Assembly (NCBI GenBank): GCA_963422465.1
Contig: OY730169.1
Span: forward strand, 5,757,123-5,821,122
Length of the DNA: 64,000 nucleotides
Direction of reading: 5' to 3'
Origin: Lichina pygmaea
Taxonomy: Eukaryota; Ascomycota; Lichinomycetes; Lichinales; Lichinaceae
Part shown: positions 6,794-64,000 of the stretch, in pieces
Position numbering within the stretch: position 1 is the stretch's first letter
Layout: each line of letters starts with the position of its first letter
Translations under genes and position numbers: made by a program
Notes under the pieces: generated by a model
Seen by the model: only the letters and a program-made list of their open reading frames with translations
Told to the model about the DNA's origin: nothing
Databases searched by the model: none

Positions 6794-7178
6794 CCTCCTG
6801 CTCGAGATCCTCCTGATCCTCGATCGCAGCAAGCTCACGCTTGATGGCCTCACCCTCCTTCTTGGACAACACACCCAACTGACGACGGAGACGAAGTTTG
6901 CGAGGAAGGAGAACAGACTCCTGCTCCTCGATCTCCTTCAGTTGAGCCTCAAGCTGAGTGTGCTCAAGCTCCATCTTCTCCCACTCTGACTCCGCGAGAT
7001 GGAGATCGCAACGGCGACTCTTCTCAAGGTACCGACCGCAAAATGTGGACTCTGAACTGACGACACACTTGGCATGGTCACGACGACATGCGCTGCATGA
7101 AACTTTGGATACCTTGCCCATCTTGCCAACACGAGAACTGAGGACTCCACGACAATTAACACAAGATGTCCGGGTCAT
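6648..7178 (-). CDS. B1 antisense ORF: Zn(II)2Cys6-type cluster plus coiled coil
   Basis: An uninterrupted 176-aa frame on the strand opposite to gag-pol, ATG at 7178, 53 nt inside the 3' LTR. It encodes the same protein as the B2 copy: a basic N-terminus, CSACRRDHAKC (C-X2-C-X6-C), an 8-residue loop, then CGRYLEKSRRC, where the fifth zinc-ligand Cys (TGC in B2) has become Tyr (TAC). A Glu/Leu/Arg-rich segment predicted to be coiled coil and an acidic Pro-containing tail follow. The 3' part overlaps the end of pol tail to tail. The frame stayed open while pol on the other strand gained many stops. Likely a DNA-binding protein by family spacing; function is inferred and the Tyr change should disable the cluster. 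Confidence 0.75.
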   Translation of the reverse strand: MTRTSCVNCRGVLSSRVGKMGKVSKVSCSACRRDHAKCVVSSESTFCGRYLEKSRRCDLHLAESEWEKMELEHTQLEAQLKEIEEQESVLLPRKLRLRRQLGVLSKKEGEAIKRELAAIEDQEDLEQEATRVESPPPLEDFFSSEALASLRPLSPSILASAGFVGGNSAVSCLSQG

Positions 7179-13335: not shown

Positions 13336-13609
13336 TGTGACAAGGCAATAGCAGAGCAAAACTTAAGCCTAACTGATTTGGTAACCTTGACCTGACTTGG
13401 CTTGAGACTTGAGACTTGGATTGATGTACAAGACAAAAGACAAGGAAGGAAGAAAAAGAGAAAAGAAGAGAAGAAGCTGGGGGAGCAGGAGAAGTTCTTA
13501 TAGGCAGGGGATCAGGCAACAGCGGAGCAAACAGGCAACAGTGCAGATGGAACTTCCCAGCAAGGTGTGTGACTTGTGCCAGATATGCAACTGGGCCACA
13601 ACCGTGACA
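13336..13609 (-). repeat. C1 5' LTR
   Basis: 274 bp with TGTGACA at both ends, homologous to the 275-bp LTRs of C2. It contains a purine-rich AAG/GAA stretch. It lacks the long inverted-hexamer arrays found in the A and B LTRs. Confidence 0.9.
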
Positions 13610-14960
13610 CTAGCAACCTCAGCTCTTCAAGAGATAGACATTATTACACTTCAAGAACTCTGGAAAAACCTCCACCTGGAGACAAGCACTTTTACTGTTT
13701 TCTCTTCTTTTCTTTCTCTTTACTGTTCAGAGATTAGCAGAACACTTTTTCTTATTAATAAAAACCTGAAACTCTCTTCTCTTCATCCTACTTTCTAGAG
13801 TAGGGAAAAACAAAAGCCAACAGGACTCCTGATCTTCCCCTGGTCCCAGATTTGGAAACTCAAGAAAGACTAGCTAAAACCTTTGAGGAGAAGACAAAAG
13901 TATTCTCAGCCTAGTTCTTCCCCAAAGCACTTGTTCCAGAACCAAGTACAGAGAGTTCCCAGAGTACTCCAGAGATCCAGCTCTCTCAGAAAGTTACTGC
14001 TGAAGAAGTGGAACAAATCCTGAACAAGAAGAAATCTTTCACAGCAGGAGGAAAAGATAAGCTGCTAAATAGATTTCTGAAAGCTCTGGGTTCCAAGTTC
14101 TGCCAAGCTATGGCTGTTCTCACATCAACATGCTGGAGACTGGAATACTTTCCAGAGAGGTTTAAGAATGTAAAGACAGTCTGTCTAAGAAAACCTGGTA
14201 AAGAATACTATAACCAAGCTAAAGCCTGGTGCTCTATAGCTTTGCTAAACATAACTGGCAACCTGATAGAAGCTATTACAGCAACAAGGCTAAGCAAGGT
14301 AGTAGAAGAAGCTAGACTTTTACCAGAAATCCAGATAGACTTCAGGAAAGGAAGATCAACTGAATCAGCACTCTTCCTACTAACTTCCCAAGTGGAAAAA
14401 GTCTGGAAGAAAGGCATAGTTACATCTCTACTTTCTCTAGATATCTCAGAAGTCTATGACAGAGTTCTACCTAAGATCCTCCAACAAATCCTAGAGAGAA
14501 AAGGAATTCCTCTCTGGCTATCTTCCTAGATTCTCTCTTTCTGCACTAGTTATTCTACCACTCTTGTGTTTGATAACTCTAAGTTCTCTGCTATTCCTAT
14601 TCACTGTGGAGTTCCCTAAGGTTTCTCTTTATCTTCTATTCTATTTCTATTTTACATTTCTGAACTTCATGAAACTGTACACTCTCCTTCCACTAGTATT
14701 TCTACTCTGAGATTTGCAGATGATACAAATCTGCTTACATTTGGACACTCTCTAAAAAGCAACCTTCTGAAGTTGAAGAACACATATCTTAAATATCTAT
14801 TATAGACTGCAAGACATGGAATAGTCTTCTTTTCTGAGAAATATAAAATACTTTATTTTTCTAGAAGAAGATCAGACAATCTTCAGCTTAAGCTCAGACT
14901 GGGGAATGTGATTCTAAGACTAAAAGAAGAAGTGTGAGTATTAGGAGTGTACCTGGATGC
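13610..14960 (+). pseudogene. LINE (Tad-like non-LTR retrotransposon), 5' part: endonuclease remnant and reverse transcriptase
   Basis: Read on the plus strand. 13610-13798 resembles an apurinic-type endonuclease N-terminus (ALQEIDIITLQELW, then TLFLINKNLKLSS). Right after its stop the sequence jumps to the pre-RT region, so most of the endonuclease is deleted. RT is open from 14008 to 14529 (NKKKSFTAGGKDKLLNRF, FRKGRSTESALFLLTSQVEK), has TAG 14530 and TAA near 14618, and carries GVP*GFSLSSILFLFY and the FADD catalytic motif at about 14713-14724. It breaks at LGVYLD where C2 entered. C1 cut its 5' side. No ORF1 is visible. Confidence 0.85.
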
Positions 14961-15235
14961 TGTGACAAGGCAATGGCAGAGCGGAACTCAAGTCTAACTG
15001 ATTCAGTAACCTTGACCTGACTTGGCTTGAGACTTGAGACTTGGATTGATGTACAAGATGAAAGACAAGGAAGGAAAAGAGAAAAGAAGAAGAGAAGAAG
15101 AGAAGAAGCTGGAGGAGCAGGAGAAGTTCTTATAGGCAGAGGATACAGTGGAGCAAGCAGGCAACAGTGCAGATGGAACTTCCTGGTAAGGTGTGTGATT
15201 TGTGCCAGATATGCAACTGGGCCAGAACTGTGACA
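14961..15235 (-). repeat. C2 3' LTR
   Basis: 275 bp, TGTGACA at both ends. The internal polypurine tract reads GAAGGAGGGGGG in sense directly before the pol stop and the LTR. Confidence 0.93.
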
Positions 15236-18200
15236 TTACCCCCCTCCTTCACATAGCAAACTCCTGTGAGCCTCAGGCTGCTTGTGGGTGTAGTTCTGTG
15301 GCTGTGGTTTCCTTGGGTATTTCTCATGGAAGTTGTAGATAGTGTCTTTGGTGTTGTTAAGATGCTCAATAGACTCTTCAGTGGCATCTTCAATTGGCTA
15401 TCCGGACTATTTGACCAGGTACTTGAACTTCTGTTGAGACATTGCTGGCTTGGAGTCAAGGATTTCTTCAACCTGGAACTCTTCATCTATGTCTTGACTA
15501 ATGACAGGGCCAGGGTGTTTATTTGATTGGCTAGAGATAGGATTAGCAGGTGTCAGACATAGAAGGGAAACATGAAAGATAGGGTGGATCTTGAGAGTGT
15601 GTGGAAGCTCCAGATAGCAGGCACAGCTTCCGACTGTCTTCAACACCTTGAATAGTCCAATCCACTTGTTGTCAAGCTTTTTGCATAGGTGGCGTGTCCT
15701 GATGTTCTTGGTATTCAGCCAAACAAGATCTCTAGTTTGATAGGACAGTGACAGGACTTGATGTAAATTAGTGGTGTGAGCTTGAGCTTCCTGGGATAGT
15801 CAGAGTTCAGCTTGCAACTGTTCCAGAATCTGTGTCATTTCTCTAGAGATTTCCATAGCATCTTGGTTACAGGCTTCACTTGTGGGTGTGATGCTGAGCT
15901 GTGGATGGAACCTTTTGTTGGCAAAGAACAGTAACATGCCAGAGGAATCAGACTGGGAGTTGTTCTGCGTGAACTCTGCCAGAGAAAGACATTGGACCCA
16001 GTCATCTTGGAGATAGTTAACATAGGATCTCAGGTAGTGTTCAAGCTCCTGATTCTCTTGTTCTGTCTGACTATCTATCTCTGGGTGGTGTTCTGAGGAT
16101 AGTTGTAGTATGACATCAAGATGGGTACAGAGTGCTTTCCAGAATAAGCTGACAAACTGACCTCCTCTGTCTGAGACAATGCTTCTGGGTAAGCCATGGG
16201 TACAGACAACAAACTGGATGAACATCTGGACAAGATACAAGGTTGTTATCTCAGCACATAGCACAAAGTGGTGTTCTTTGGTAAGACAGTCAGTGATAAC
16301 CCAGATGTGCTTGGCACCAGGGAAGCAGGCATCTCTTGACTTGGGCAAGTCAGTAATGAAATCCATAGCCAGATCCTGCCAACATTGCTGAGGCACAGGA
16401 AGAAACAGCAGCTCTCCTTGGCAATCATAGGCAGGCTTTGCTCAAGAGTAGACATGACAATTCCTGATGTACTGCTGTATGATGTTCACTATCTTTGGCC
16501 AATAGTACCAACAAGACAGAAGATTGTGGGTCTTGGCAATCCCAGTGTGGCTAGCTATTGCTTGGTTATGGGCTTCTTGGAACAGGTGTAGGTGTAGCTC
16601 ATTATTCTCAGGGATCCAGAGTCAGTTCTTGTAGAAGAGACAGTTATTTTCCAAGCTGCAGTCTGAGAGAGACACTTCTTGACTGTGCCTGACACTATCC
16701 CTTAGCATCTGTGACACTGTTACCACTGGGTCACCTTCAGTAAGGTTGTTATAGGCAGCTTGGATAATGTCTGAAAGAGGTGTAGCATCAGGTTCAGTGT
16801 CAACTGGTACAGTTTCTGAACATCTCAGGATCTGGATAGACTTGACTTAAACCTCTGAATGTGCAAGATTCTTGGGCTTGAGGATAACTTACTCCATGAA
16901 GTCTTGACAGGGATCACTGTCTGACAGGAGATCTTGGGAATGTCAAGTGAGGGTGTCAGCCTTGCACTGACTGCCTGGACAGTAGCTGATCTTGAAATTG
17001 AAGTGTGACAAGAACTTGCTCTAACAGACTTGACAGTGGGAAAGGCACTTTGATGACATGAAGTACTCCAAGTTCTTGTGATCAGAGATCACCTTGACAG
17101 GTTCTGGAGATTCTTTAAGCTCTGCTCACTATTCTTCAAAGACATGGACAATTGCCAGCAACTCTTTGTTGTAGATCTTGTAGTTGTATTCTGCTGGCAG
17201 GTGGTGGTGTGACAAGAAGGCAACAGGGTGTAGAACTCCTTCATGATCTGGCTGTGACAGGACAGTACCAGAGATGTAGTCAGAAGTGTCAGTCTCAACA
17301 ACACACTTCTTCTCTGGATCAAAGTACTGCAGGATAGATGCAGTACTGAACATCTTCTTGATACTTTCAAACAAGTGCTACTCTGGGGTTTCCCACTTGA
17401 AGGCAACATTCTTCTTGGTCAGAGCTGTGAGTGGGGATACAAGTTTGGCAAAGTCTTTGATGAACCAGTGGTAGAAGTTTGCAAAGGCAATGAAGCTCTG
17501 CACTTCCTTGAGACTGGCAGGAGGATTCCACTTCTTGATGGTGTCAGTCTTGGCTGGGTCTATGCTCACAGATCTGGGTCAGCTATCTTCAGTGGCAGAC
17601 TGAATGATAAGGCCAAGGTACTTGACTTGATGTACTTCAAAGTCACACTTGGAGATGTCAACTTGCAGGCTTGCATCTTGTAGTTGACTGAGAACAAGCT
17701 TGACATGCTTCTGGTGTTCCTTGAGTGTCTGACTGTAGATAAGGATGTCATCCACATAGGCAGTGTTAAAGACATCAAGGATGTCAGGTCCCAAAACATC
17801 ATTGATGTAGTTCTGGAACATGCTTGGAGTATTGGCAAGACCAAAGGGTATGACAAGGTATTCGTAGAGGCCTGAGTGTGTGCGGAACGCAGTCTTCCAT
17901 TCTTCACCTTCCTTCATCTGGATACAGTTAAAGGCACTAATAATGTCAAGCTTGGTGTACCACACAGTTTTGCAAAGCTGGTCCAACATCTCCCAGATCA
18001 GTGGTAGGGTAACAGTTCTTGATGGTGATAGTGTTGAGTGCTCTGTAGTCTACACAGAAACACAATCCACCTTCTGGCTTCTTGACAAAAAAGACTGGTG
18101 TAGCAGCAGATGATAAAGATGCTTGAATGAAGCTCTTGTTCAGGTTCTCTGTCAGGTACTTCTTAAGAACTTCAAGTTCTTCTCTGCTCATACTTTACAG

Positions 18201-18996
18201 AGGTCCAGAGAGTGCCTGGGTTCCTGGTTCCATCTTAATCTCATAGTCAACTTCTGGGTGTAGAGGAGGAAGCTTGTCAGCATCATCCTTGCTGAAGATG
18301 TCCAGGAACTTGTGGTACTGAGCAGGGAGAAGTGTGGCAGGATCCACACACTTCTTTAGCTTCAACATCTGCTCAATGTCTCTCAGAGAAACACTGAACA
18401 CCTGGTGATCTGGCTTGGCAGCAAGGAGAGAAAATACAGTAGTATTGATAGGGATTGGTGTGGCAGAAAAAAGCTTGGGATTCTGAGGCTTTCCAGCAGA
18501 TGTCTTAGCTTCAAGATCCAAAGAGATTGGATAGCCATTGTTAGACTTAAGGCATGTAGATCAGCAGTGATCTGACTTGAACATGATTGAGGTGTTTGTT
18601 CAATCAATGTGTGGCCTGTGCTTCTGGAGCTATAGCATCCCCAGAATCACATCATAGTGAAGACCAGGAGACACAAACAGAGAGACTTGCTTCTGGTGCA
18701 CGCCATGTGCTGTGGTCATGATTGTCTTGGCAAGATGCATGGTTTGTGATGTCTTGCCATCAAACAATCGCAATGTGTGTGGGTAGGGGAGAGGTTCTTG
18801 GTGAAGAGATTGCGCAAAGGAAGCACCAATGCAGCCAAAAATGCTGAACAGCCAGAGTCAATAAGAGTATTGCACTTGAATTTCCCATCTAGGATACAAG
18901 GAAGAAACAAGCACTTACTGTCTAATTGCTGGTCTGGAGACAGATAGCCAACATGGAGATCTTTTTCATGTCCTTGGGTGTGACGATAACCAAAGA
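15236..18996 (-). pseudogene. pol: C2 pol (protease, RT, RNase H, integrase, chromodomain)
   Basis: Protease with TLIDSGCSAF at about 18840-18865; RT with YVDD at 17747-17758; RNase H 17129-17374; integrase 15800-16396 (MDFITDLPK, ITDCLTKEHHF, VSDRGGQF), which is an open 198-codon stretch; chromodomain at about 15400-15500 (FQVEEILDS, KFKYLVK) cut by TAG 15407 where TGG is expected. The terminal TAA is at 15236-15238, immediately next to the LTR. A 2-nt deletion near 18008 relative to C1 and another small indel between protease and RT shift the frame. The element is dead. Confidence 0.9.
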
Positions 18997-19953
18997 CTAC
19001 TTGTTTTCTGACTCTGGAGTAGTCTCAACAGTGGCAGACTTGGTGGTGGTTGTGGTGGTGGCAACAACAGGCATGCTTTTCACTGGACAGAAGGTTGAGA
19101 CATGACCTTGGTTCCCACAGTAGAAGGAGAGGCCTTTGCTTTGGTGATGTTCTCACTCTTCTGGTGTCAGCTTAGAGTGGCTGAGATCCATGGTAGGACT
19201 TGGTGGCTGTGGCGTGAAGGCTGGCTTGATGAACCCTGGACACAGAACTGAAGCTTCTGACTGTGGAACTGAGGCTTGGGTGGGAGGTGCTTGACATAGA
19301 TGGTGAGAGTTAGCAGAAGTGGTACACAACTGGTTGTCCTGCAGCTGGTATTCCTCAACAAGCTTCTGATAGCTGATGTCCTTGAGGTTGATACTGACAA
19401 GCTGCTTGGCAAGCTCTTCAGAGACAGTACATCAAAGATAGCACTTCAAGGCCTTGTCATTGAAGCCTGTGTGTGGAGTATACTGATTGGACTCTGTGAA
19501 GAACTCGGCAAAGGAATGGTTGGCCTGACACAAGGTGATGAGCTTCCTCTGAGCTAGGAACTCTGGGTCTGGGTCAGAGAAGGTGTTCCAGAGATCTTGG
19601 ATGATGTCGTGCCAGTCAATGTACTGGCCAGCCATGATCTTAGCTGAGATGTAGGACTGTGTAGTGCCAGTCATGCGTGAAAAGACATACGCAATCTGTG
19701 ATGTTTCCGTGGGGTACCAGTCAGTGTTGAGTGTCATCTTGAGTGACAGTGACATGATAAAGCTCTCAAGCTTCTCATGCGTGATTTCCGTGTTTCTGCC
19801 ATCACCACTGAAGATCTCTGGGTCAGCAGTGTGTTCAGACTTGGACTTGGGAGTAGTGTTAGTAGCTTGAATTCACATGAACTCTGCAAACATGTTGTGA
19901 AGAAACTTGTTATTTCCAGCAACTGGCATGGCTTGGTCTGGTTGTTGAGATAT
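18997..19953 (-). pseudogene. gag: C2 gag
   Basis: 957 nt, 319 codons including the stop TAG 18997-18999. The start codon is ATA (ATG in C1). The capsid domain is open from 19432 to 19755 (MSLSLKMTLNTDWYPTETSQ) and broken by a TGA next to it. The zinc knuckle near 19110 keeps its Cys and His better than C1. Pol follows in the -1 frame. Confidence 0.85.
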
Positions 19954-20011
19954 GACAAGGACATAAACATGGCTTGGTGAAGTGTGTTATAGTTGGGTAG
20001 GTCTTTTGTAG

Positions 20012-20286
20012 TGTGACAAGGTAATAGCAGAGCAGAACTCAAGTCTAACTGATTCAGTAACCTTGACCTGACTTGGCTTGAGACTTGAGACTTGGATTGA
20101 TGTACAAGACAAAAGACAAGGAAGGAAAAGAGAAAAGAAGAAGAGAAGAAGAGAAGAAGCTGGGGGAGCAGGAGAAGTTCTTATAGGCAGAGGATACAGC
20201 AGAGCAAGCAGGCAACAGTGCAGATGGAACTTCCTGGTAAGGTGTGTGATTTGTGCCAGATATGCAACTGGGCCAGAACTGTGACA
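20012..20286 (-). repeat. C2 5' LTR
   Basis: 275 bp, same ends as its partner. The gag start lies 58 nt inside. As in A and B, no TGG-initial tRNA primer-binding sequence is obvious right after the LTR. Confidence 0.93.
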
Positions 20287-31400: not shown

Positions 31401-31704
31401 AGTCGAAGAAAAAACCGGACCAGTCAACGTCAGACTGCGACTACTGAGAGACGCTCGGGTACACCCAAACTTTCACATCTCAATGATTGAATTAGCCGAC
31501 CAGAGCACACCCTTGCAGGAAACATTTCATTACCAACCAGAGGAAGAACAGGAATTCGAGGCTGAACAGATCCTGAAGAGAAAAGGTCAGCGATACCTTG
31601 TCAAGTGGAAAGACTACCCAGACTCAGAAAATACCTGGGAGCCACTCAGGAACCTCGCGAACTGCCAGCTCCTCCTGCAGCAGTTCTGGCAGGAGCAGGA
31701 CTGA
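28408..31704 (+). pseudogene. pol: A3 pol (protease, RT, RNase H, integrase, chromodomain)
   Basis: 1,099 codons with stop, -1 frame relative to gag, ATG 28408. Protease DSGAS at 28489; RT with YLDD at 29542-29553 inside an uninterrupted 283-codon stretch 29452-30303 that also holds RNase H (ETDASDQAVGA, AVVNALEHW, LTDHKNL); integrase with HHCC (HDNPAHGHPG, CLLC) and core (VDRFTKY, ITDRDKLF, TEQANQVLETY); chromodomain at 31558-31690 ([18 protein letters not shown]). Stops: TGA 28984, TGA 29287, TGA 29425, TAA 30301, TGA 30547, TAG 30904. A codon is lost near 30335 relative to A4. The final TGA may itself be mutated: A6 reads CAA there. Confidence 0.93.
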
Positions 31705-32146
31705 ACAGCTCGGCCTGCAGCGCGGACGCATCAATGACTGTCGCCGACAAGTCTTCACCATCCGCCTCCATTTCAGCAACAAGGCACTGGAGCTTCTTCT
31801 TTGCTCGACCCTCAGCACCCTCAAGAACCTTTCGCTTTCGGGACACACGAGCCTGCAGCTCGGCAAGCTGCTTGACAAGAGCATCCTGCTTGGCCTCATC
31901 GACAGCCAAATCCTCACGAAGGTTATCCCGAGTCATGTTCAGCGACTCCCAAGAAAGTGACACACAGGACTTTCCCTGACAAGTGCACTCAGCGCACTTC
32001 AACTTATCGTTGTCGTCAGACATTCAGAAGCAGGGCTTGTGGTTCAAAACACAGAAGTCACACGGAGCAAGCGACACGAAGTTATGATCACAGATCTGGG
32101 CTGCCAGTTGGTTTTGGTAAGCAGAGGCACGTGATTTTGCAGACAT
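31646..32146 (-). pseudogene. A3 antisense ORF: Zn(II)2Cys6-type cluster plus coiled coil (one nonsense codon)
   Basis: 167 codons on the strand opposite gag-pol, ATG 32146, 45 nt inside the 3' LTR. Layout: MSAKSRASAYQNQ, then CDFCVLNHKPC (C29, C32, C39), an 11-residue loop, CAECTCQGKSC (C51, C54, C61), then about 90 residues of Leu/Glu/Lys/Arg-rich probable coiled coil and an Ala/Gly/Ser tail. All six Cys are in place with Zn(II)2Cys6 spacing. Codon 41 is TGA (32024-32026); A6 has CGA there. Codon 105 is still CGA here but TGA in A2, A4, A5 and A6. It overlaps the last 57 bp of pol. Confidence 0.75.
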
Positions 32147-32794: not shown

Positions 32795-33640
32795 ATCACG
32801 ATCATTACAGACAGAGACAAACTCTTCACATCCAACTACTGGAAGACAATCAGTGCAGCCATGGGAACAAAACCCAAAATGTCTACAGCCTATCACCCAT
32901 GAACTGACAGCCAGACAGAGCAAGCAAACCAAGTCCTGGAGACTTACTTACAGCATTACATCAACCAGACCCACAGCAATTAGGTACAGTTATTACCAGT
33001 GGCACAGCTGGCAATCAACCAGCACAGATCAGACTCAACAAAGGAATCGCTATTTTTTGCCAATTTTGGATGACATGCGAATATCAGGATGCCAAGCAGA
33101 GCTTCACCAAACACGGAGAAAGCACTCCAACATGACAAGCTCCTACGACAAACACACACGATGATGAGGCACTACCTTCAAAAGACCTCAGAAAGAATGC
33201 AACATCAAATAGACAAGAAATTGAAAATGGCACCTCAGCTAAAGAAGGGGGATAAAGTCTACCTCCTTACAAGAAATTGGAAAACAAAGAAACCAAAAAC
33301 AAAGAAACTTGACAACATCAAGGTCAGACTATTTTCAGTCGAAGAAAAAACAGGACCAGTCAACATCAAGATATGACTACCAAGGGATACCAGAGTCCAT
33401 CCAAACTTTCATATATCAATGATTGAACCAGCCGACCAGAGCACACCCTTGCAGGAAACATTCCATTACCAACCTGAAGAAGAACAAGAGTTTGAGGTTG
33501 AACAGATCCTGGCTAGAAAAGGTCAGCAATACCTTGTCAAGTGGAAAAGATACCCAGACTCAGAAAATACCTGGGAACCACTCAAGAACCTTGCGAACTG
33601 CCAGCTTCTTCTGCGACAGTTTTGGCAGGAGCAGGACTGA
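32795..33640 (+). pseudogene. pol: A2 pol, second part (integrase core end, chromodomain)
   Basis: Resumes after A3 with ITIITDRDKLF, then the Glu-containing segment TEQANQVLETY, a C-terminal GKDKVY-like part (LKKGDKVYLLTRNW near 33235) and the chromodomain ([29 protein letters not shown] near 33490-33585). Both parts together make 3,300 nt. Stops include TGA near 32902, TAG near 32982, TGA near 33070 and TGA near 33375. It ends at TGA 33638-33640. Confidence 0.9.
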
Positions 33641-34082
33641 ACAGCTCAGCCTGCAGGAGGGACATGTCAATGACTGATCAAGTCAAATCCTTGCCATCTG
33701 ACTCCATCTCTTTCACCAAGCACTGAAGCTTCTGCCTTGCACAGACCTTGGCGCCCTCCAACACCTTTCACTTCCAAGACAGACAAGCCTGCACTGTGGC
33801 AAGTTGTTCAAAGAGTACATCACGTGTTGCCTTGTCAGCGGCAACATCCTCACAGAGGTTGTCCCGGGACATGTTCAAAGATTCCCAGGACACAGAGACA
33901 CAAGACCTTCCGCGCCGAGTGCACACAGCACATTTCAACTTATCGTCTTCTCCCAGCATCTGGAAGCACAGACAACTACAGAGAACACAAAAGTCGCAGG
34001 GTGTACGCGAAACAAAACCCCGATCGCGGATTTGAGCAGCTAGCTGAGTTCAGCTAACAGTCACACGTGACTTTGGAGGCAT
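33582..34082 (-). pseudogene. A2 antisense ORF, beta type
   Basis: Also 167 codons. It begins MPPKSRVTVS and keeps six Cys in Zn(II)2Cys6 spacing (CDFCVLCSCLC and CAVCTRRGRSC). Broken by TGA at codon 11 and TGA at codon 105, with a further TGA downstream. The protein differs clearly from the alpha version outside the cluster core, while the neighbouring pol is nearly the same in alpha and beta elements. Confidence 0.72.
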
Positions 34083-35597: not shown

Positions 35598-38345
35598 TTA
35601 CCTATCTTCATCACACTCCTCAACTGGTGCAGGTGTTCTTCTCTCTGTTCTTCTTTTTGGTCTCCGCACTCGACTGGTACTGACATTGCTTGCAGAGTCG
35701 TCTGGCCACAACTCACTCACAGTATCTGCATCCTTTGATGACCATCTTATATCATCTTCACTTTCCCAAAGCACTCCACCTCCTATAGCAGGAGAGTCGC
35801 ATGGCCGACCAACACCAGGTGGGCCACTTGCTGTATCAAAGGACGGTCTGGTCCCCGACCACAGCGGCCGTCTCGACTGTGCTGCCAGGCTGAGCCCTGC
35901 CCCTCGTTCTCGTAAAGCAAGTCGGACCATCTCGGCTTGTTTGTGCAGTGTCTCGAACGCGTCTTCTAGAGCTTCCATACTGAGATAGATGTCACGTTCG
36001 ACTTCGGCCAATACAGCGATCTCGGTCTCTTCGTCGTGGGAAACTGGAGGACCTGGGCCTGGCCCCGGACCCGACAAAGGCGAACCGACGTTTATCCGAG
36101 AAGGGGTAGCGTTGCGGGGGACATCGGCCGGTGACATTGTCGTTGACCTGACCCTGTCTGAGGGTGATGGACTCCGTAAGCCGGTCAAATCATGAGACCA
36201 GGGTGTCGCGGCGCTCGACCTGGGAGGTGAGACAATGCCGGCACAGTCGTCCGCCCCACCCCACAAGAACCCATCGAACCGCCCGGAAGTCAGAATGTCC
36301 CACTCGGATGCATTCACAGCAGCAAGCGTCGCCAAGACTTGATGCATCGCAGGGTACTTGACCAGGTAAGCGGCACTCTCAGGATCGCGCGGGGCGACCG
36401 CCAGCCGGTAAAGCCGTTGCAGCGCCAGTGCTGTCTGTGATAACAGCGGGACCGCCTCTTCTTCTGTCGACCGATTGGACGTGGAGCTGGCTGCCGAGGA
36501 GGATTGGAGGCCAAGAAGCTCGCTGAAGCCGTCTCTCTCGGTTTGCTTGAGGTGTGTCAGGATCGCAAACGTCAAGGTCTCGTCATCGATCCCTTGAGGC
36601 GGAGAGGTCGGGTTGACCAGTTGACGGGCAAGCCAGCGGTCGACAGCTTCTTTCTTCTTCTTCGTCTGCCGTCGGTAGTGGTCGCGAAACTCGGAAGGAA
36701 CGTCGGCATCGACCGATGCCGGTCTCGGTTGCAGCTTTGGGTCTGAAACTGCGCCGGCAGCGGTGTCAGGATCGTCCCCGGACGTAGAGGGTCTCCCCAT
36801 CCCTTCAAAGTTGAAGGGAGGCCAAGGCGGCAACGACTTGCGCCCGCTGACCCATTCCAGCACATCTCCCCAGCCCAAGCCATGATGGAACTCGTCGACG
36901 GCATCGGAGTGCTGACAAAAGGGACAACTGCAGAGCTCCGACGAGATGTCCCGTGCGAAAACGGCCTCGAGGCGGTCGAGGAGCCTTCTGGCAATCGAGC
37001 GGTAGCCGGTAGCCACGGCAAGAGAACCGTTGCGCGCGATGACGGTCTCGTAGTGCCGGAGGAGGGCGTTGTAGGGCGCGAAGGCGTGCTCGACTAGGCC
37101 CGCAGGGGCCGTTCCCGGTGAGTTTGCTGTCGTGCCGTCGTGGCGTGCAACGGCTGGGGGATAGGGCGAGGGCAGTGGCCGACCCACTTCCAGAAACCGT
37201 CGAGGAACAGGATGAGGTAGCCCTCCGTGATGCAGGAGGTAATCCACTCGTGGGGCGTTCACCGGGAGCGTAGGTGGTGGGGGTGGAGGCGGGGGTTGGG
37301 GTGATCGTCCTGGACCGTACAGAAAGTCCGACAGCTTCCCTTCAGCGGCATGGTCGGCCAGGCGAGTCGAGCCGTGCTCGTGCGGCGTCTGGGGCGCTGC
37401 ATCTGTCGTCTCCGTTGTGCCAACGCTGTAGACGGACGACGTGGCGGCACGGGCCGCCTCAAGCGCGGTGGGTCTTCGGCTCCTCGGCAGCACTTCGGTG
37501 ACAGACGTTCCCTCCGAACCAAGGACCGACGCGTCTTCGAACGAAGAAAACGATCAGTCTCGCGTCGCAAGGATACCCGTTACCAGAAAGGAACTAGGAG
37601 CTCGACGCTCCATTCGCAGAGTGATCGTGGGCGTACCTTCCACCTTGGCTCTGGCCGCCGCGTTCGCCGCAGGGCCAGCAACGTCCTCCGAGCCCCGCTT
37701 GGTGTCGCGTCGAGGCTGCTGCGGCGTGTCGGCAGTAGCCTCCTTGTCGGGAGTGGGCTCGGCAGGCTCGTGACATGCTGGAACGGCTGCTCCGCTGGGA
37801 TCAGAGCTCGAATTCCCGCTCGTATGCTCAGTCCCGGCAGCGTCTGGGGAATCTGCGGTTGGCTCTCGACCATCTCGACTCGCGCCCTGGTGACGGAGTT
37901 GTTCGGATAGCGAAGTCAGGGGCGGACTAGGGGGACTCGCGCCAGCGACGCGAACAGCAGCCTTCCCCTTTCCCGCTGCGCTTCTTTTCTGGTCCGGAGA
38001 TGTTCTCGCCTTGTTCGCGCGACGTGAGGTGACATCGGTCGGATTCGGCGTGAAAGGACTGGCGGGAATATCTTTGGCGACGGACTCCTTGGAATGCGCC
38101 TTTGAGAATGCTGGGTAGGGCAGCGAGGTCTTGCTTGACGCCGGCGACGACCTGTGGAGGGATGATCGAGTCCTGGACGGGTCCGAGGTGGTACTCCTCT
38201 TCCGTCGACTCGTCGAGCCGCTGGGTGATGGCGGACCTCGCTCGGGCGATCTGGAGCCTACTCGGCGCGACCGATTCGACTTGCGCCGGCTGCCTGACTC
38301 GGCGTCCTTGGTCACATCCTTCTGTCTGGCTTGCTTCCCAGGCAT
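35598..38345 (-). pseudogene. Host conserved fungal protein gene, interrupted by one in-frame TGA
   Basis: A single frame of 916 codons on the minus strand, ATG 38345 (MPGKQARQKD) to the stop at 35598, cut only by TGA at 37554-37556. The first 263 codons are Ser/Arg/Pro-rich, probably disordered. The conserved part follows the stop: LEAARAATSSVYSVG, a run of seven prolines, VDYLLHHGGLPHPVP, GSLAVATGYRSIARRLLDRLE, a CSCPFCQH cluster (36909-36932), GLGWGDVLEWVSGRKSLPPW, DDETLTFAILTHL. There is no ATG between the TGA and the conserved block, so the second half is not a separate gene. No phase-compatible intron with good borders (C/TAG acceptor) was found around the TGA; a 42-nt GT-AAG alternative is poor. 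CGA to TGA mutation is the simplest reading. From memory it resembles a fungus-specific family often auto-named 5-methylcytosine G/T mismatch glycosylase-like; I see no glycosylase motif and do not assert activity. Confidence 0.7.
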
Positions 38346-44900: not shown

Positions 44901-45248
44901 CCAAAGACAAAGAAACTTGACAACATCAAGGTCAGACTATTTTCAGTCGAAGAAAAAACAGGACTAGTCAACATCAAGATATGACTACCAAGGGATGCCA
45001 GAGTCTATCCAAACTTTCATATATCAATGATTGAACCAGCCGACCAGAGCACACTCTTGCAGGAAATATTCCATTACCAACCCGAAGAAGAACAAGAGTT
45101 CAAGGTTGAACAGATCCAGGCTAGAAAAGGTCAGCAATACCTTGTCAAGTGGAAAGGATACCCAGACTTGGAAAATACCTGGGAACCACTCAAGAACCTC
45201 GCAAACTGCCAGCTTCTTCTGTGACAGTTTCAGCAGGAGCAGGACTGA
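41949..45248 (+). pseudogene. pol: A4 pol
   Basis: 1,100 codons in the -1 frame relative to gag. Protease (LVDSGASGNY near 42030), RT with YLDD near 43090 but a TAA four codons after NT, RNase H near 43500-43780, integrase 44112-44531 open (CLLCQKNKHG, MDFITKLPK-like core with SIDFITK, ITDRDKLF), chromodomain near 45110-45210 ([18 protein letters not shown]). At least a dozen TGA/TAG/TAA codons. Chromodomain integrases of this class are known to steer insertion to modified histone H3, which fits accumulation in subtelomeric DNA. Confidence 0.92.
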
Positions 45249-45690
45249 ACAGCTCAGCCTGCAGGAGGGATGTGTCAATGACTGATCAAGTCAAATCCTC
45301 ACCATCCAACTCCATCTCTTTCACCAAGCACTGAAGCTTCTGCCTCACACAGACCTCAGCGCCCTCCAACACCTTTCACTTCCGAGACAGACAAGCCTGC
45401 ACTGTGGCAAGTTGTTCAAAGAGTGCATCGCGTGTTGCCTTGTCAGCGGCAACATCCTCACAGAGGTTGTCCCGGGACATGTTCAAAGATTCCCAGGACA
45501 CAGAGACACAAGACCTTCTGCGCCGAGTGCACACAGCACATTTCAACTTATTGTCTTCTCCCAGCATCTGGAAGTATGGATGACCACAGAGAACACAAAA
45601 GTCGTAGGGCATACATAAAACAAAACTCCGATCGCGGATTTGAGCAGCCAGCTGAGTTTGGCTAACAGTCACACGTGACTTTGGAGGCAT
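45190..45690 (-). pseudogene. A4 antisense ORF, beta type
   Basis: 167 codons, ATG 45690, 44 nt inside the LTR. Open for 104 codons, then TGA at codon 105 (45376-45378). Two of six cluster Cys have become Tyr (C29 and C39, TGC to TAC), the others remain (C32, C51, C54, C61). Same position and length as in A2, A3, A5 and A6. Confidence 0.7.
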
Positions 45691-46827: not shown

Positions 46828-47328
46828 ATGCCTCCAAAGTCATGTGCGACTGTTAGCTGAACTTAGCTTGCTGCTCAAATCTGCGATCAGGGTTTTGTTT
46901 CACGTACACCCTGCGACTTTTGTGTTCTCCGTGGTCATCTGTGCTTCCAGATGCTGGGAGAAGACAATAAGTTGAAATGTGCTACGTGCACTCAGCGCAG
47001 AAGGTCTTGTGTCTCTGTATCCTGGGAATCTCTGAACATGTCCCGGGACAACCTCCGTGAGGATGTGGCCGCTGACAAGGCAACATGCGATGCACTCTTT
47101 GAACAACTTACCACAGTGCAGGCTTGTCTGTCTCAGAAGTGAAAGGTGTTGGAGAGCGCTGAGGTCTGTGCAAAGCAGAAGCTTCAGTGCTTGGTGAAAG
47201 AGATGGAGTCAGATGGTGAGGATTTGACTTGATCAGTTATTGACATGTCTCTCTTGCAGGCTGAGCTGTTCAGTCCTGCTCCTGCTGAAACTGTTGCAGA
47301 AGAAGCTGGCAGTTCATGAGGTTCTTGA
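46828..47328 (+). pseudogene. A5 antisense ORF, beta type
   Basis: 167 codons on the plus strand, opposite to A5 gag-pol. All six cluster Cys are kept (C29, C32, C39, C51, C54, C61: CDFCVLRGHLC and CATCTQRRRSC). Broken by stops at codons 11, 13 and 105. It is followed by the probable coiled coil and ends with TGA 47326-47328. Confidence 0.72.
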
Positions 47329-48019
47329 GTGGTTCCCAGGTATTTTCCGAGTCTGGGTATCCTTTCCACTTGACAAGGTATTGCTAACTTTTTCTAGCCA
47401 GGATCTGTTCAACTTCAAACTCTTGTTCTTCTTCAGGTTGATAATGGAATATTTCCTGCAAGGGTGTGCTCTGGTCAGCTGGTTCAATCATCAATATATG
47501 AAAGTTTGGATGGACTCTGGCATCCCTTGGTAGTTGTATCTTGATGTTGACTGGTCCTGTTTTTTCTTTGACTGAAAATAGTCTGACCTTGATGTTGTCA
47601 AGTTTCTTTGTCTTTGGTTTCTTCGTTTTCCAATTTCTTGTGAGGAGGTAGACTTTATCCCCCTTCTTTAGCTGAGGTGCCATTTTCGATTTCTTGTCCA
47701 TTTGACATTGCATTCTTTCTGAGGTCTCTTGAAGGTAGTGCCTCATCATCGTGTGTGTTTGTTGTAGGAGCTTGTCATGTTGGAGTGCTTTCTCCATGTT
47801 TGGTGAAGCTCTGCTTGATATCCTGATGTCTACATGTTGTCCAAAATTGGCAAAAAATAGTGATTCCTTTGTTGAGTCTGATCTGTGCTGGTTGATTGCC
47901 AGCTGTGCCACCAGTAATAACTGTACCCAATTACTGTGGGTCTTGTTGATGTAATGCCGTAAGTAAGTCTCCAGGACTTGGTTTGCTCACTCTGTCTGGC
48001 TGTCAGTTCATGGGTGATA
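47270..48019 (-). pseudogene. pol: A5 pol, C-terminal piece (integrase end and chromodomain)
   Basis: Open for 175 codons at 47384-47911 (MAQLAINQHRSDSTKESLFF, LKKGDKVYLLTRNW, FEVEQILARKS), then the chromodomain to TGA 47270-47272. The B2 insertion follows on the upstream side (TGATA duplication). Confidence 0.9.
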
Positions 48020-48431
48020 TGTTAAAGGCCAGTCCACGTTCACACAGAATATGGGTGGTCCTGTCTTCGACCGAGGAGGGCAGGGACTCAATAGATGAAT
48101 AGCAAGTGGGGTAACTCTCTTGCTATTGTCGCTCGTAATGTGCGTTCAGCCTGGAGAGCTATTCTCTCCGGCTATCTGGGTTCTTATATACAGGAGCCTG
48201 AGGGGGGGGGTCCTCCCGAGGGGTATCAGCTTTCTGCGTGGACAAGCTGGACAAGCTGGTTACACATCGTCCACCTTGTCCACCGGGTCGGGTGAACATT
48301 GTTCCCGTGGACGAGCTGGACGAGCTGGTTACACATCGTCCACCTCGTCCACCGGGTCGGGTGAACATTGCTCCGTGTACCTCTGTACACTCACTTCGGT
48401 CAGCTCAGCCGTTCCGGCCTGGGCCTTAACA
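48020..48431 (-). repeat. B2 3' LTR
   Basis: 412 bp with two copies of the 69-bp GTGGAC/GTCCAC unit. The purine tract of B2 (CCCTCCCTCC on the plus strand, 48436-48447) follows its inner edge. Confidence 0.94.
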
Positions 48432-48483
48432 CCATCCCCTCCCTCCAAAGGTTCTGTCCCCAGATCCTCTCGCTTCTCTTACC

Positions 48484-49014
48484 ATGACCCGGACATCTCG
48501 TGTTAATCGTCGTGGAGTCCTCGGTTCTCGTGTTGGCAAGATGGGCAAGGTATCCAAAGTTTCATGCAGCGCATGTCGTCGTGACCGTGCCAAGTGTGTT
48601 GTCAGTTCAGAGTCCACATCTTGCGGTCAGTGCCTTGAGAAGAGTCGCCGTTGCGATCTCCATCTTGCGGAGTCGGAGTGGGAGAAGATGGAGCTTGAGC
48701 GCACTCAGCTCAAGGCTCAACTGAAGGAGATCGAGGAGCAGGAGTCCGTTCTCCTTCCTCGCAAACTTCGTCTCCGTCGTCAGTTGGGTGTGTTGTCCAA
48801 GAAGGAGGGTGAGGCCATCAAGCGTGAGCTTGCTGCGATCGAGGATCAGGAGGATCTCGAGCAGGAGGCTACGCGTGTGGAGTCCCCGCCGCCTTTGGAG
48901 GACTTCTTCTCTTCGGAGGCTTTGGCTTCTCTCGGGCCTTTGTCTCCATCGATCCTGGCTTCTGCGGGTTTTGTCGGTGGAAACTCCGCAGTTTCTTGTT
49001 TGTCGCAGGGCTGA
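48484..49014 (+). CDS. B2 antisense ORF: intact Zn(II)2Cys6-type protein with coiled coil
   Basis: 176 aa, ATG 48484 preceded by a CT-rich leader, 53 nt inside the LTR. Residues 1-27 are basic (MTRTSRVNRRGV). Cluster: CSACRRDRAKC (C28, C31, C38), 8-residue loop, CGQCLEKSRRC (C47, C50, C57), exactly C-X2-C-X6-C twice, with basic residues between the first Cys pairs as in Gal4-type domains. About residues 62-125 alternate Glu/Lys/Arg with Leu and should form a coiled coil suited to dimerisation. The tail contains PPPLEDFFSSEAL, acidic and aromatic, like an activation segment. It overlaps the end of B2 pol (48869) tail to tail. Nuclear DNA binding is inferred from spacing; no homologue could be searched. 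An alternative is a zinc-binding RNA chaperone. Confidence 0.8.
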   Translation: MTRTSRVNRRGVLGSRVGKMGKVSKVSCSACRRDRAKCVVSSESTSCGQCLEKSRRCDLHLAESEWEKMELERTQLKAQLKEIEEQESVLLPRKLRLRRQLGVLSKKEGEAIKRELAAIEDQEDLEQEATRVESPPPLEDFFSSEALASLGPLSPSILASAGFVGGNSAVSCLSQG

Positions 49015-52000
49015 AGTTCTCGGTGGGTTCCCGCGAGTTCTCCTCATTGTCATACCCTAACCACTTGACCAGGTATTCGATTTTCCGTCCGCTTCTCCGG
49101 CTGTCTAGGATCCTTTCGACATCGTACTCTTCTTCGTCGTCCTCGAAGTGCCATTCTGTTTCGATTGCTGCGTCACTGGGTGCTGGCTTGAGCAGCGAGA
49201 CATGGAATACTCAGTGTATCCGTGCCTTTTTCAGCAGTCTCAGTCGGTAGTTGACTTCTCCAGTGCGCTTCTCAATCTCAAACGGTCTGATTCGTACATG
49301 ATCCAGCTTTTTGCTCGGTCGCCTCGAGCGCAGGTTTTTTGTTGACAAATAGACCTTATCCCCCCTCTCTAGGGTTGGTCCCTTCAACCTTTTGCTGTTT
49401 AGGCGGTGGCTTGTTGTCTTTTGTGCAGATTCAATTGCAGTCTTCATTTCCTCATGCATAGCAGTGAGTTTTTCGACGTTCGTTGAAGTGCCACTTCCAG
49501 CCGCCATCGCTTCCCAGTGGGGGTTTCTGCCGTAGTTCGCAAAGAACGGCGTCATGCCCGTCACGCTGTGTTGCTGATCGTTGTACGCAAACTGAGCCAT
49601 TGGTAGCAGTTCTACCCAATCGTCCTGTCGGTGGTTGACGTAGTGGCGTAGGTACTGTTCCATCGTCTGGTTTGTTCTCTCAGTTTGTCTGTCTGTTTGT
49701 GGATGGTAGGCAGTAGACATCCTCGTGTCTATCCCTAGCTGTCTTGTCCACGTGTTCCAGAATTTCGAGGTGAAGAGTTTGTCTCGATCTGAGATAATCT
49801 TCGTGGGTAGCCCTCGCTGGCTAACCAATTCTTTGAGCAGGACATTGGCGAGTTCGCTCGCTGTTCCTGTCTCTCGCCACGGGATCAGGTGAGCGTATTT
49901 GGTGAGTTTGTCAACAACCACCAAGATACTGTCATATTTCACCTTTGTTACCGGGTCCTCTGACCTCGGCAGCTTCACCACAAAATCCATTGTGATGGTA
50001 TCCCAAGCCGCTTCTGGGAGGTCCATTTGTTGACTCTCTCCATAGGGTTTGTGGCGTGACGGTTTGTTTTTCGCACACTCTTCGCAGTTGCGAATAAATT
50101 CCGTCACTTTCCGCTTCATTCTGTTGAAGTGGTAACGTCTCCGGATCTTTTCCAGGGTCTTGTCTCGCCCAGGATGTCCGTGTAGAGGTCCATCGTGATG
50201 TTGTCGAATCACGTCCTCTTGTGCGCTCTCTGGCACTTCTTCCTTGTTCGTGGCCGCAACGTTGTGGCCTAGGGTCAGGAGTGCACCCATTTCTTCAGTT
50301 TTCGCTAACTGAGGTTGAGCATAGACCAGAGTTTGTCCTTTTGTCGCTAGGATTGGGCGCTCTTCTGTCGTGTCGTCTGTCGTCATATCAGGCCGCCTGC
50401 TAAGCGCGTCCGCTCGTGCGTTTTCTGATCCTTTTCGATAGAAGATCTGGAAGTCGTATGAAGCTAAAAGCTCCGCCCATCGGACTTGTCGTCTGTTTAG
50501 CTTCTTCGTCGTCGTGAAGTAAGCCAAATTCTTGTGGTCTGAGTACACGTCCACTGTGTACTTTGCTCCTTCCAGGTAAGGTCTCCACTCCTGGAATGCG
50601 TCGACAATCGCTAACAACTCCTTGTCGTGAACATCGTACCTGAGTTCTGGGCCAGAGAACTTTCTCGATCGGTATGCGACAGGGTGTAGGCGGTTTTCGG
50701 TGTCTGGTTGACACAAGCAAGATCCAAGTGCTTGGTCCGAGGCATCCGTCTCCATGATGATCCGCCGTCCGGGATCAAATGATGCCAGTATGGGTGCGGA
50801 GGTGAACTTCTCTTTCAGCTCCTGGAACACTCTCTCTTGGCTGTTCCCCCATGTGAAGGTTTCTTCCTTCTTTGTTAGTTCAGTCAAGGGTGCTGCTGTC
50901 CTCAAGTACTCCTTGATGAATTGTCGGTAGAAGTTCGCAAATCCCAGGAAGGATTGGACTTCTTTGAGGTTTTTGGGTGTTGGCCAGTCTTGTACTGCCG
51001 TGATCTTTGTATCGTCCATACGGATTCCTTCCGTTGTCAGGATCGACCCCAAATATTCCACTTCTTTCACGTGGAAGACACTCTTATCAAGGCGTAACCT
51101 CATTCCTGCTTCTTGGAGCGCATGTAGGATCTTCTTGACATGCTGTCTGTGCTCCTCCAGGGTTCCATTGGTGTAAACCAAGACATCGTCAATATAAGCG
51201 GTAACAAATATATCCAGGTATTGTCGGAGGATGGCGTTAATGAGTGATTGGAACGTCGCCGGTGCATTCGTAAGGCCGAATGGCATAATGGTATACTCGT
51301 AATGCCCGTACCTCGTACGAAAGGCTGTCTTCCATTCTTCGCCATCTTTCATCCTAACCAGGTTGAAAGCGCCTCGGATGTCGAATTTGGTAAACCACTT
51401 GGCTCCTTGGATTCAGTCCTGGATTTCCGATATTAACGGTAGCGGGTAGCGATTCTTAATCGTGATCGCATTGAGCTGCCGGTAGTCGACACACAGTTGT
51501 AATTTGCCGTCTTTCTTTGGCACAAACAATATCGGGTATCCGGCCGGTGATGTTGAAGGTCTTATGAACCCTTTCGCTAGGTTCTCGTCCAGGTAATCTC
51601 TTAAGGCCTCAAGCTCCTTTGCTGATAGAGCGTAAATAGGGCCATGTGTGGGTTTCTTTCCGTCTTCCAGCGGAATTTCGTGATCCCACTCTTGGTGTTC
51701 TGGTAGCGTCGCGACCGCTTCCTCACCAAACATCTCCTGGTAGTCTTTATACTCACTTGGCAGCTGCGGTGCCTGAGTCTCGCCCACAGCGTCATGCGTG
51801 GTGCAAAGTTGATGGTTTCGGGGCTTCATCCAAGCCACATAGGCTCGCCCTCACCGGTGGTGCTTCTTCCACCCTGCATATGAGATCTCTTTGATTCTCA
51901 CTTTCTCTGGCTCTGCTCGAGTTGCCAGACTCCTCTTCGGAAAGACTAGGTGCCTTCTTTTCCAGTCGATCCTTGGGTTTTGACTTTCCAACCACAGAAG

Positions 52001-53963: not shown

Positions 53964-54377
53964 TGTTAAAGGCCAGTCCACGTTCACACAGAATATGGGT
54001 GGTCCTGTCTTCGACTGAGGAGGGCAGGGACTCAATAGATGAATAGCAAGTGGGGTAACTCTCTTGCTATTATCGCTCGTAATGTGCGTTCAGCCTGGAG
54101 AGCTATTCTCTCCGGCTATCTGGGTTCTTATATACAGGAGCCTGAGGGGGGGGGGGTCCTCCCGAGGGGTATCAGCTTTCTGCGTGGACGAGCTGGACGA
54201 GCTGGTTACACATCGTCCACCTCGTCCACCGGGTCGGGTGAACATTGTTCCCGTGGACGAGCTGGACGAGCTGGTTACACATCGTCCACCTCGTCCACCG
54301 GGTCGGGTGAACATTGCTCCGTGTACCTCTGTACACTCGCTTCGGTCGGCTCAGCCGTTCCGGCCTGGGCCTTAACA
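53964..54377 (-). repeat. B2 5' LTR
   Basis: 414 bp with two 69-bp units in which GTGGACGAGCTGGACGAG faces CGTCCACCTCGTCCAC; sense TATATAA near 54129-54135. Two bp longer than its partner, the difference lying in the G/C homopolymer run. Confidence 0.94.
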
Positions 54378-61500: not shown

Positions 61501-61795
61501 TGAAGAAAAAACTGGACCAGTCAACATCAGACTGTGACTACTGAGAGACACTCAGGTACACCCAAACTTTCACATCTCAATGATTGAATTAGCTGACCAG
61601 AGCACACCCTTGCAGGAAACATTTCATTACCAACCAGAGGAAGAACAGGAATTCAAGGCTGAACAGATCCTGAAGAGAAAAGGTCAGCGATACCTTGTCA
61701 AGTGGAAAAACTACCCAGACTTGGAAAATACCTGGGAACCACTCAGGAACCTCGCAAACTGCCAGCTTCTCCTGCAGCAGTTCTGGCAGAGGTAG
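58502..61795 (+). pseudogene. pol: A6 pol
   Basis: From ATG 58502; protease near 58580-58610 (LVDSGASGNY), RT with YLDN near 59640, RNase H near 60060-60330 with several stops, integrase 60764-61084 open, chromodomain near 61650-61740 (YLVKWKNYPDLENTWEPL). It ends at a TAG (61793) earlier than the others; the usual terminal TGA reads CAA here, so the true end of family A pol may be about a dozen codons further on. Twelve or more nonsense codons. Confidence 0.9.
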
Positions 61796-62243
61796 GACCA
61801 AACAGCTTGGCCTGCAGTGCAGACATGTCAATAACTGTTGCTGACAAGTCTTCACCATCCGCCTCTATTTTGGCAACAAGGCACTGGAGCTTCTTCTTTG
61901 CTTGAACTTCAGCACCTTCAAGAACCTTTCACTTTTGGGACACATGAGCCTGCAGCTTGGCAAGCTGCTCAACAAGAGCATCCCACTTGGCCTCATCAAC
62001 AGCCAAATCCTCGCGAAGGTTATCCCAAGTCATGTTCAGCAACTCCCAAGAAAGTGACACACAGGACTTCCCACGATGAGTACATTCAGCGCACTTCAAT
62101 TTATTGTTGTTGTCAGACATTCGGAAGCAGGGCTTGTGGTTCAAAACACAGAAGTCACATGGAGCAAGCGACACAAAGTTATGATCACAGATCTGGGCTG
62201 CCAGTTGGTTTTGGTAAGCAGAGGCATATGATTTTGCAGACAT
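61743..62243 (-). pseudogene. A6 antisense ORF, alpha type
   Basis: 167 codons, ATG 62243, 44 nt inside the LTR. Codons 1-104 are open and keep all six Cys: CDFCVLNHKPC (C29, C32, C39), then FRMSDNNNKLK, then CAECTHRGKSC (C51, C54, C61). Codon 41 is CGA (TGA in A3). TGA at codon 105 (61929-61931) cuts the coiled coil. Confidence 0.74.
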
Positions 62244-63842: not shown

Positions 63843-64000
63843 TTAGGGTTAGGGTTAGGGTTAGGGTTAGGGTTAGGGTTAGGGTTAGGGTTAGGGTTAG
63901 GGTTAGGGTTAGGGTTAGGGTTAGGGTTAGGGTTAGGGTTAGGGTTAGGGTTAGGGTTAGGGTTAGGGTTAGGGTTAGGGTTAGGGTTAGGGTTAGGGTT
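63843..64000. repeat. Telomere, (TTAGGG)n
   Basis: 158 bp: 26 perfect TTAGGG units and a partial TT at the window end, without variant repeats. The G-rich strand points outward at the right end, so this is a true right telomere. No subtelomeric gene such as a RecQ-type helicase lies next to it; the cap sits directly on element A5. Confidence 0.98.

Follow-up and report, generated by a model that had tools for sequence, protein, structure and literature searches.

In human T-lymphotropic virus type 1 (HTLV-1), the antisense gene HBZ is expressed from the 3' long terminal repeat (LTR), and its product, a transcription factor that dimerises, targets the sense promoter. Here, we analyzed an antisense gene carried by B2, a Ty3/gypsy retrotransposon in the genome of the fungus Lichina pygmaea (Lichinomycetes). 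B2 lies in a window of 64,000 nucleotides, the whole stretch that was analyzed (GCA_963422465.1, contig OY730169.1, positions 5,757,123 to 5,821,122), and coordinates below are those of the window. HBZ differs from the B2 product in being a basic leucine zipper rather than a Zn2Cys6 protein and in belonging to a human retrovirus, and a regulatory action in the present elements is something that we only infer. In the consulted sections of one review, an antisense promoter in the 3' LTR of HTLV is described, together with antisense open reading frames (aORFs) in plant LTR elements, namely, Grande gene23, RIRE2, Retand, and PvRetro13, whose function is given as unknown (PMC7264820). According to the same sections, the Grande product is nuclear and the plant aORFs lack clear similarity to known proteins, save for an SMC domain in PvRetro13; neither a Zn2Cys6 domain nor a swapped cis-array is mentioned there. 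Among fungi, Boty, a Ty3/gypsy element of Botrytis and Sclerotinia (Zhao et al. 2011), carries the antisense gene brtn between pol and the 3' LTR (PMC7264820, PMC8365987, PMC4227169). As far as the consulted parts of these citing papers go, Boty resembles B2 in being a fungal Ty3/gypsy element with a gag-pol that ends in a chromodomain and an extra antisense gene between pol and the 3' LTR. The same parts mention no linked array of sites in the U3 region of the LTR, in a comparison made by description rather than with the BRTN sequence. No record named as Botrytis was found among our database matches, nearly all of which were unnamed ENA proteins.

An initial annotation of the window had taken an antisense gene of this class in Ty3/gypsy elements to be undescribed. 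Antisense genes as such are already known, from Boty as well as from plants, but no Zn2Cys6 case was found. This search for a fungal antisense Zn2Cys6 gene left most subscription journals outside its coverage and was not aimed at cassette exchange; a paper on Blastomyces LTR elements (PMC11540331) lacked antisense, zinc, and similar terms. The gene of B2 is composed as follows.

48484 to 49014, plus strand: antisense ORF of B2, 176 amino acids (aa), with a Cys6 cluster, a long helix, and an acidic, Ser-rich C-terminus; opposite pol, which is on the minus strand.
48565 to 48654, plus strand: Cys6 cluster, residues 28 to 57, C-X2-C-X6-C-X8-C-X2-C-X6-C; the section with the lowest ratio of nonsynonymous to synonymous differences (pN/pS) between B and C types, 0.18.
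48655 to 48879, plus strand: predicted continuous helix, residues 58 to 132, with a hydrophobic periodicity of 3.5 (structure model and periodicity test).

The 176-codon frame first reported for B2 was confirmed to be open. Cysteines occur at residues 28, 31, 38, 47, 50, and 57 and additionally at 172, and the C-terminus of B and C proteins is acidic and rich in Ser and Leu. The position is of the brtn type. The location originally given, between the end of pol and the 3' LTR, applies to most of the gene but not to its last ∼48 codons, which lie over the final part of pol (end of the pol frame at about 48869 to 48871).

We then compared the predicted proteins across types (A1 and A2 in one family; B, C, C2, and D in the other). 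The spacing C-X2-C-X6-C-X5-12-C-X2-C-X6-8-C was found in 69/74 open frames with a length of at least 100 aa (20/22 B, 20/23 C, 12/12 A1, and 17/17 A2). Across 61 full-length frames (22 B, 23 C, 10 A1, and 6 A2), the six cysteines were retained except for Tyr at 5 of 366 positions. Shuffling of residues gave this spacing in 0 of 200,000 trials with the 194-aa open frame of B2 and in 1 of 200,000 with one A1 frame. The exact Zn2Cys6 spacing that had been claimed for both families is borne out. The PROSITE PS00463 residue pattern fitted 16/22 B and 20/23 C proteins and none of the A type. PF00172 (Zn_clus) was matched by 7 of 17 members at an E value of ≤1. In AlphaFold models built from 13-row alignments, the B cluster was modeled with moderate confidence (block means of ∼61 to 75) and was followed by a helix at residues 58 to 132 (predicted local distance difference test score, pLDDT, mostly 86 to 98); the A model had a helix at 66 to 128. 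Periodicity of the helix following the cluster was strongest at 3.5 among seven periods tried, consistent with a predicted dimerisation segment. The probable coiled coil of the initial annotation accordingly reappears as a long, heptad-like helix predicted in both models. When a combined A and B profile was compared to solved structures, GAL4 (1d66) was the best at an E value of 0.019 and HAP1 followed at 0.077, with coiled-coil and RING chains at similar E values. LEU3 was the best for the B/C profile alone (0.71) and GAL4 scored 0.73 with the single B2 sequence, coiled-coil and RING chains again being comparable. A and B proteins were weakly similar to each other (hhalign probability, 9.7%; E = 0.0033), so that their common descent is no more than plausible. 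A PHD-like zinc finger was considered for the A type and rejected (PF15446, 16.0 bits in L064 against a cut-off of 27; 4 of 17 members at E ≤ 1). The one named relative in databases was a partial protein from a metagenome-assembled genome of Watsoniomyces obsoletus (Lichinomycetes; P0089) that begins at the fourth cysteine. In viral contigs, 54 pattern matches gave no confirmed relative.

The antisense gene and U3 form one divergent cassette on a nearly identical gag-pol/R-U5 chassis, delimited in B2 as follows.

48180 to 49060, unstranded: divergent cassette of U3, polypurine-side leader, and antisense gene, reaching as far as the pol chromodomain.
48185 to 48190, minus strand: sense TATA box of the LTR, at the left border of the cassette.
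48237 to 48374, unstranded: U3 tandem array, 69 bp × 2; each unit has two GGACGA-type half-sites plus two inverted ones, each pair at 9-bp spacing.

Compared in 40-bp steps to the 3' LTR of a C element, that of B2 was 90 to 100% identical at 48020 to 48179 (R-U5 side) versus 54 to 85% at 48180 to 48419 (U3). Relative to the C-type copy L091, the identity of B2 was 95 to 100% across gag-pol and, within the LTR, 97% for the initial 150 bp (R-U5); it fell to 67 to 74% across U3 and the greater part of the antisense gene, with 81% at the 3' end of that gene. The A family repeats this contrast: A1 copy L094 and A2 copy L093 were 60 to 77% identical over U3 and the antisense gene versus 89 to 99% in gag-pol, and in another pair the 80 bp of R-U5 compared were 95 to 100% identical. 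For either family, identity in fine steps put the left border at the sense TATA box. The fact that the gene and the U3 repeat array have diverged jointly is the strongest feature of the system and had no place in the initial annotation.

The array unit next to the antisense gene measures 69 bp in B, 35 in C, 35 in C2, 42 in A1, and 50 in A2, and a 47-bp tandem array was found in 2 of 13 D loci. Units of B, D, and A2 share a design of two 6-mers at 9-bp spacing plus two inverted ones at 9-bp spacing, with half-site sequences that differ. This pair design was matched at any spacing from 6 to 20 by 0 of 400 shuffles each for B, A2, and two D units, with a statistic devised in the knowledge of B and A2 (D was met later). 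Allowing at most one mismatch per half-site, the direct plus inverted pair at spacing 9 was present in 22/22 B, 14/14 A2, and 7/13 D copies, and at least one such pair in 11/13 D. No copy had both pairs at a spacing of 7, 8, 10, 11, or 12; single pairs occurred at spacing 11 in 15/22 B and 7/18 C copies and at spacing 7 in 4/14 A2. The count of repeated and inverted 6-mers exceeded shuffles for B and A2 only (P = 0.0005; 0/2,000). The maximum length of inverted arms in an array unit did not exceed that in shuffles (P = 0.07 to 0.90). The half-site GGACGAG, with its decay forms, dominated in all 22 B copies (a single foreign half-site being present in two of them) as well as in 2/13 D copies; GGCAGAG dominated in 11 of 13 D. 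The array cores of B and D aligned without gaps (D copies L096, L097, and L098), with half-sites changing in concert. Two D-type cassettes, L100 and L102, bore mostly B-type half-sites plus one of D type, as if one half-site type were being homogenised toward the other.

Elements upstream of the antisense gene were read where start residues were recognised (12/12 A1, 14/17 A2, 22/22 B, and 18/23 C open frames). An antisense TATA box lay 75 to 80 nucleotides (nt) before the ATG in 26/26 A copies, and CACGTG was upstream in 24/26, at 145 to 151 nt in 23 of them; neither element was found at the corresponding place in 22 B and 18 C copies. Both elements (CACGTG at about −147/−150 and TATA at −75/−80) are common to A1 and A2, for example in L064 and L075, despite very different surrounding U3 sequence. 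The distance from the sense-side TATA to the antisense ATG varied from 231 to 374 nt in B and from 250 to 408 nt in A (L011 to L032 and L058 to L085), as if array copy number had changed.

We put a probability of roughly 0.6 on the reading that this is a real accessory gene encoding a Gal4-type regulator most likely directed at sites in the U3 of its own LTR, with gene and array forming a cassette. The antisense gene would be transcribed from the 3' LTR toward pol and would encode a small Gal4-type (Zn2Cys6) protein, predicted to dimerise through the long coiled coil and most likely to bind the half-sites that its own family carries in the U3 tandem array. Because the antisense gene and the sense TATA flank the array, the protein could govern both the sense promoter, in the 5' LTR copy, and its own promoter. 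An acidic, Ser/Leu-rich C-terminus such as that of B and C would suit activation, whereby we only infer the direction of regulation. The cassette would have a history different from that of the gag-pol/R-U5 chassis, most simply through template switching near the 3' end of the RNA. U3 and the antisense gene are neighbors there, so that one switch would move both; by the cycle of reverse transcription, the new U3 would then be copied into both LTRs. That the cassette is generally exchangeable in fungal LTR elements, so that antisense Zn2Cys6 factors and cognate U3 sites with changed half-sites swap as types on one gag-pol chassis, is a more tentative proposal, to which we give slightly less than an even chance.

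The likeness to the Gal4-type factors GAL4, HAP1, and LEU3 lies in the cysteine spacing and the coiled coil that follows it, and the direct 9-bp spacing recalls HAP1, whose sites are direct repeats with 9-bp start-to-start spacing. The present proteins differ in having a much longer coil and in being borne by a retroelement. Besides the order in which the pair statistic was devised, several results weigh against a Gal4-type regulator of the U3. PF00172 stayed below its cut-off of 21 bits throughout (14.7 bits for B2; best, 20.0 bits for L057), with no match at E ≤ 0.5 in two of five B/C proteins (L036 and L040, C type) and three of three A-type proteins (L064, L075, and P0029). The PS00463 pattern fitted 0/29 A-type proteins (0/12 A1 and 0/17 A2), and the A-model cysteine cluster had low confidence (block means of 35 to 52). 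The 9-bp design was not seen in C and A1 arrays in either the shuffle or the copy tests, the candidate half-sites of A2 and D lack CGG, and no antisense TATA was found near the gene in 22 B and 18 C copies. Of the checks proposed initially, the Zn_clus search and structure prediction came out mixed, and the Gal4-type class originally assigned is favored by spacing and helix but not by the Pfam scores. The poor fit of the A type to the PS00463 residue pattern, its three proteins without a Zn_clus match, and the C and A1 arrays without the 9-bp design would also suit a selected antisense protein with another role, such as a part in choosing integration sites, in importing the cDNA complex into the nucleus, or in blocking host silencing, with a host factor reading the U3 arrays. 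We consider this unlikely: gene and U3 diverge jointly as a cassette in two families, and half-sites change in concert between B and D.

Still less probable is that the cassette was never exchanged and evolved very fast in place, as in an arms race, leaving gag-pol behind. Synonymous divergence (dS) in the antisense gene versus pol was 1.06 versus 0.11 between B and C and 1.78 versus 0.41 between A1 and A2. Sorted by pol lineage and cassette (P2 being the second pol lineage and P3 the third, which carries cassette D), the pair P1_B/P1_C had a dS of 0.12 in pol and 1.10 in the antisense gene, an approximately tenfold difference between adjacent segments, whereas the relation was reversed in P1_C/P2_C (0.55 in pol and 0.27 in the antisense gene). 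Tree topology was tested with four groups, since three clades are always compatible when unrooted. The trees included 10 of 15 fourth-group loci (leaving out L104 and L105, with no antisense match, and L095, L098, and L100, with a partial pol match) and 8 of 10 P2 loci (leaving out L047, which had formed a long branch earlier, and L049). The antisense tree (34 rows) separated P1_C and P2_C from P1_B and P3_D with 100/100 support and rejected the grouping of P1_B with P1_C (approximately unbiased test, P = 2.9 × 10−5). The pol tree, in which P1_B and P1_C are nearly without difference, rejected neither P1_C with P2_C, the grouping concordant with the cassette (P = 0.37), nor P1_B with P1_C (P = 0.40). 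This lack of rejection counts against exchange and is what evolution in place has in its favor. Given that the pol tree resolves neither grouping, the evidence for a mosaic is the contrast in divergence together with the sharp borders rather than a conflict between two resolved trees. The reversal of dS between pairs, the rejection by the antisense data, and the return to near identity in R-U5 beyond U3 all speak for a separate history of the cassette.

The antisense ORF is a protein-coding gene under purifying selection. Ratios of nonsynonymous to synonymous divergence (dN/dS; Nei-Gojobori, pair means) were computed between subfamilies, not among copies of recent origin, and cover the codons outside the pol overlap. 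The full-length frames used were 8/22 B, 6/23 C (with L049 and L057 added as C2), 5/10 A1, and 6/6 A2, those of B and A1 being the least CpG decayed. The ratio was 0.198 for B versus C, 0.187 for B versus C2, 0.217 for C versus C2, and 0.115 for A1 versus A2. The remaining frames had values of 0.83 to 2.04, except for the sense frame that shares wobble positions (0.21 to 0.40), which contains stops in B2. Differences at codon positions 1/2/3 were 28.8/21.6/54.6 for B/C and 33/24/76 for A1/A2. Third positions thus made up about half of the differences (P = 5 × 10−4 to 7 × 10−8; four single pairs), and the excess persisted without CpG-explained changes (P = 3 × 10−4 to 3 × 10−7; three pairs), in agreement with the past selection on the antisense protein postulated earlier. 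Conservation caused by pol was rejected: within the pol-tail overlap, dN/dS was 1.07 in the pol frame and 0.46 in the antisense frame, and the other, wobble-sharing sense frame had 0.36, so that the overlap by itself is uninformative. Convergent overlap with pol and the mention of antisense RNAs of LTR elements as possible silencing triggers, in the part of PMC7264820 seen, would fit a transcript that matters alone, through double-stranded RNA control of the element, with an incidental ORF; this is very improbable given selection on residues that is strongest in the cysteine cluster in B/C and in the coil in A1/A2 (pN/pS of 0.18 for the latter as well). A chance ORF or dead passenger, suggested by recent B copies that differ mainly at first codon positions through CpG-type decay (8.0/3.6/4.3 over all 22; pN/pS = 0.92), is ruled out for practical purposes by the between-subfamily dN/dS of 0.12 to 0.22, the third-position excess, and the identical cysteine spacing in A and B.

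The host element B2 comprises the following further features.

48020 to 48431, minus strand: 3' LTR of B2 (LTR pair 97.8% identical).
53964 to 54377, minus strand: 5' LTR of B2, the other member of that pair.
48974 to 49126, minus strand: pol chromodomain, PF00385 at 47.3 bits; the antisense gene shares its 3' end with the tail of pol.
49214 to 51352, minus strand: pol fragment with reverse transcriptase, RNase H, and integrase; a TGA at 49211 to 49213 interrupts pol before the chromodomain.

PF17917, PF00078, PF17921, PF00665, and PF00385 all scored above their cut-offs, as in a chromovirus (Ty3/gypsy), although separated by the TGA in B2. All seven antisense copies previously noted in the window were recovered, namely, those of B2 and B1 and five of A type.

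6648 to 7178, minus strand: B1 antisense ORF, open, 94% identical to B2, with one of the six cysteines (50) replaced by Tyr.
61728 to 62237, minus strand: A1-type copy, stop present.
31631 to 32140, minus strand: A1-type copy, stop present.
46834 to 47343, plus strand: A2-type copy, stops present.
33567 to 34076, minus strand: A2-type copy, stops present.
45175 to 45684, minus strand: A2-type copy, stops present.

Each of the A-type copies (two A1 and three A2) contains at least one stop. The intact frame had been ascribed to B2; B1 also has an open frame of 176 codons, with the loss of Cys50 just noted. Each of three queries against the host genome (32.5 Mb in 8 contigs) gave at least 150 scored matches, with 309 candidates for B, 504 for A1, and 495 for A2 in lists that possibly overlap, and many of the B-query matches listed were open across the entire gene. 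Loci were taken mostly from stop-free matches among the best 150 of each query's candidates. Copies differed mainly by CpG-type changes (Arg to Cys or His, and TGA stops), and the CpG observed/expected ratio in open frames ranged from 0.35 to 0.98. The database protein P0063 appeared by eye to be mostly A1-like but to resemble A2 at the C terminus and is possibly a recombinant within the antisense gene. Contig C1 ends with the window, which carries a telomere repeat, (TTAGGG)26, at 63843 to 64000; the nested elements are therefore subtelomeric. Separate LTR-like direct repeats of ∼275 bp were observed at 13336 to 13609, 14961 to 15235, and 20012 to 20286, with AGAAGAGA tracts (region 13336 to 20286). 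GC content was 0.63 at 36001 to 38000 versus 0.41 to 0.53 in the remaining 2-kb steps.

If the proposed regulator and cassette are real, these elements would gain private, switchable promoter control, as a retrotransposon counterpart of HBZ. Retroelements, and not retroviruses alone, would then encode their own antisense transcription factor and exchange it as a module that includes its sites. In the present elements the gene points toward a DNA-binding fold, selection on the protein is seen, and an array of candidate sites changes alongside it, so that the question of function raised by the plant aORFs becomes directly testable.
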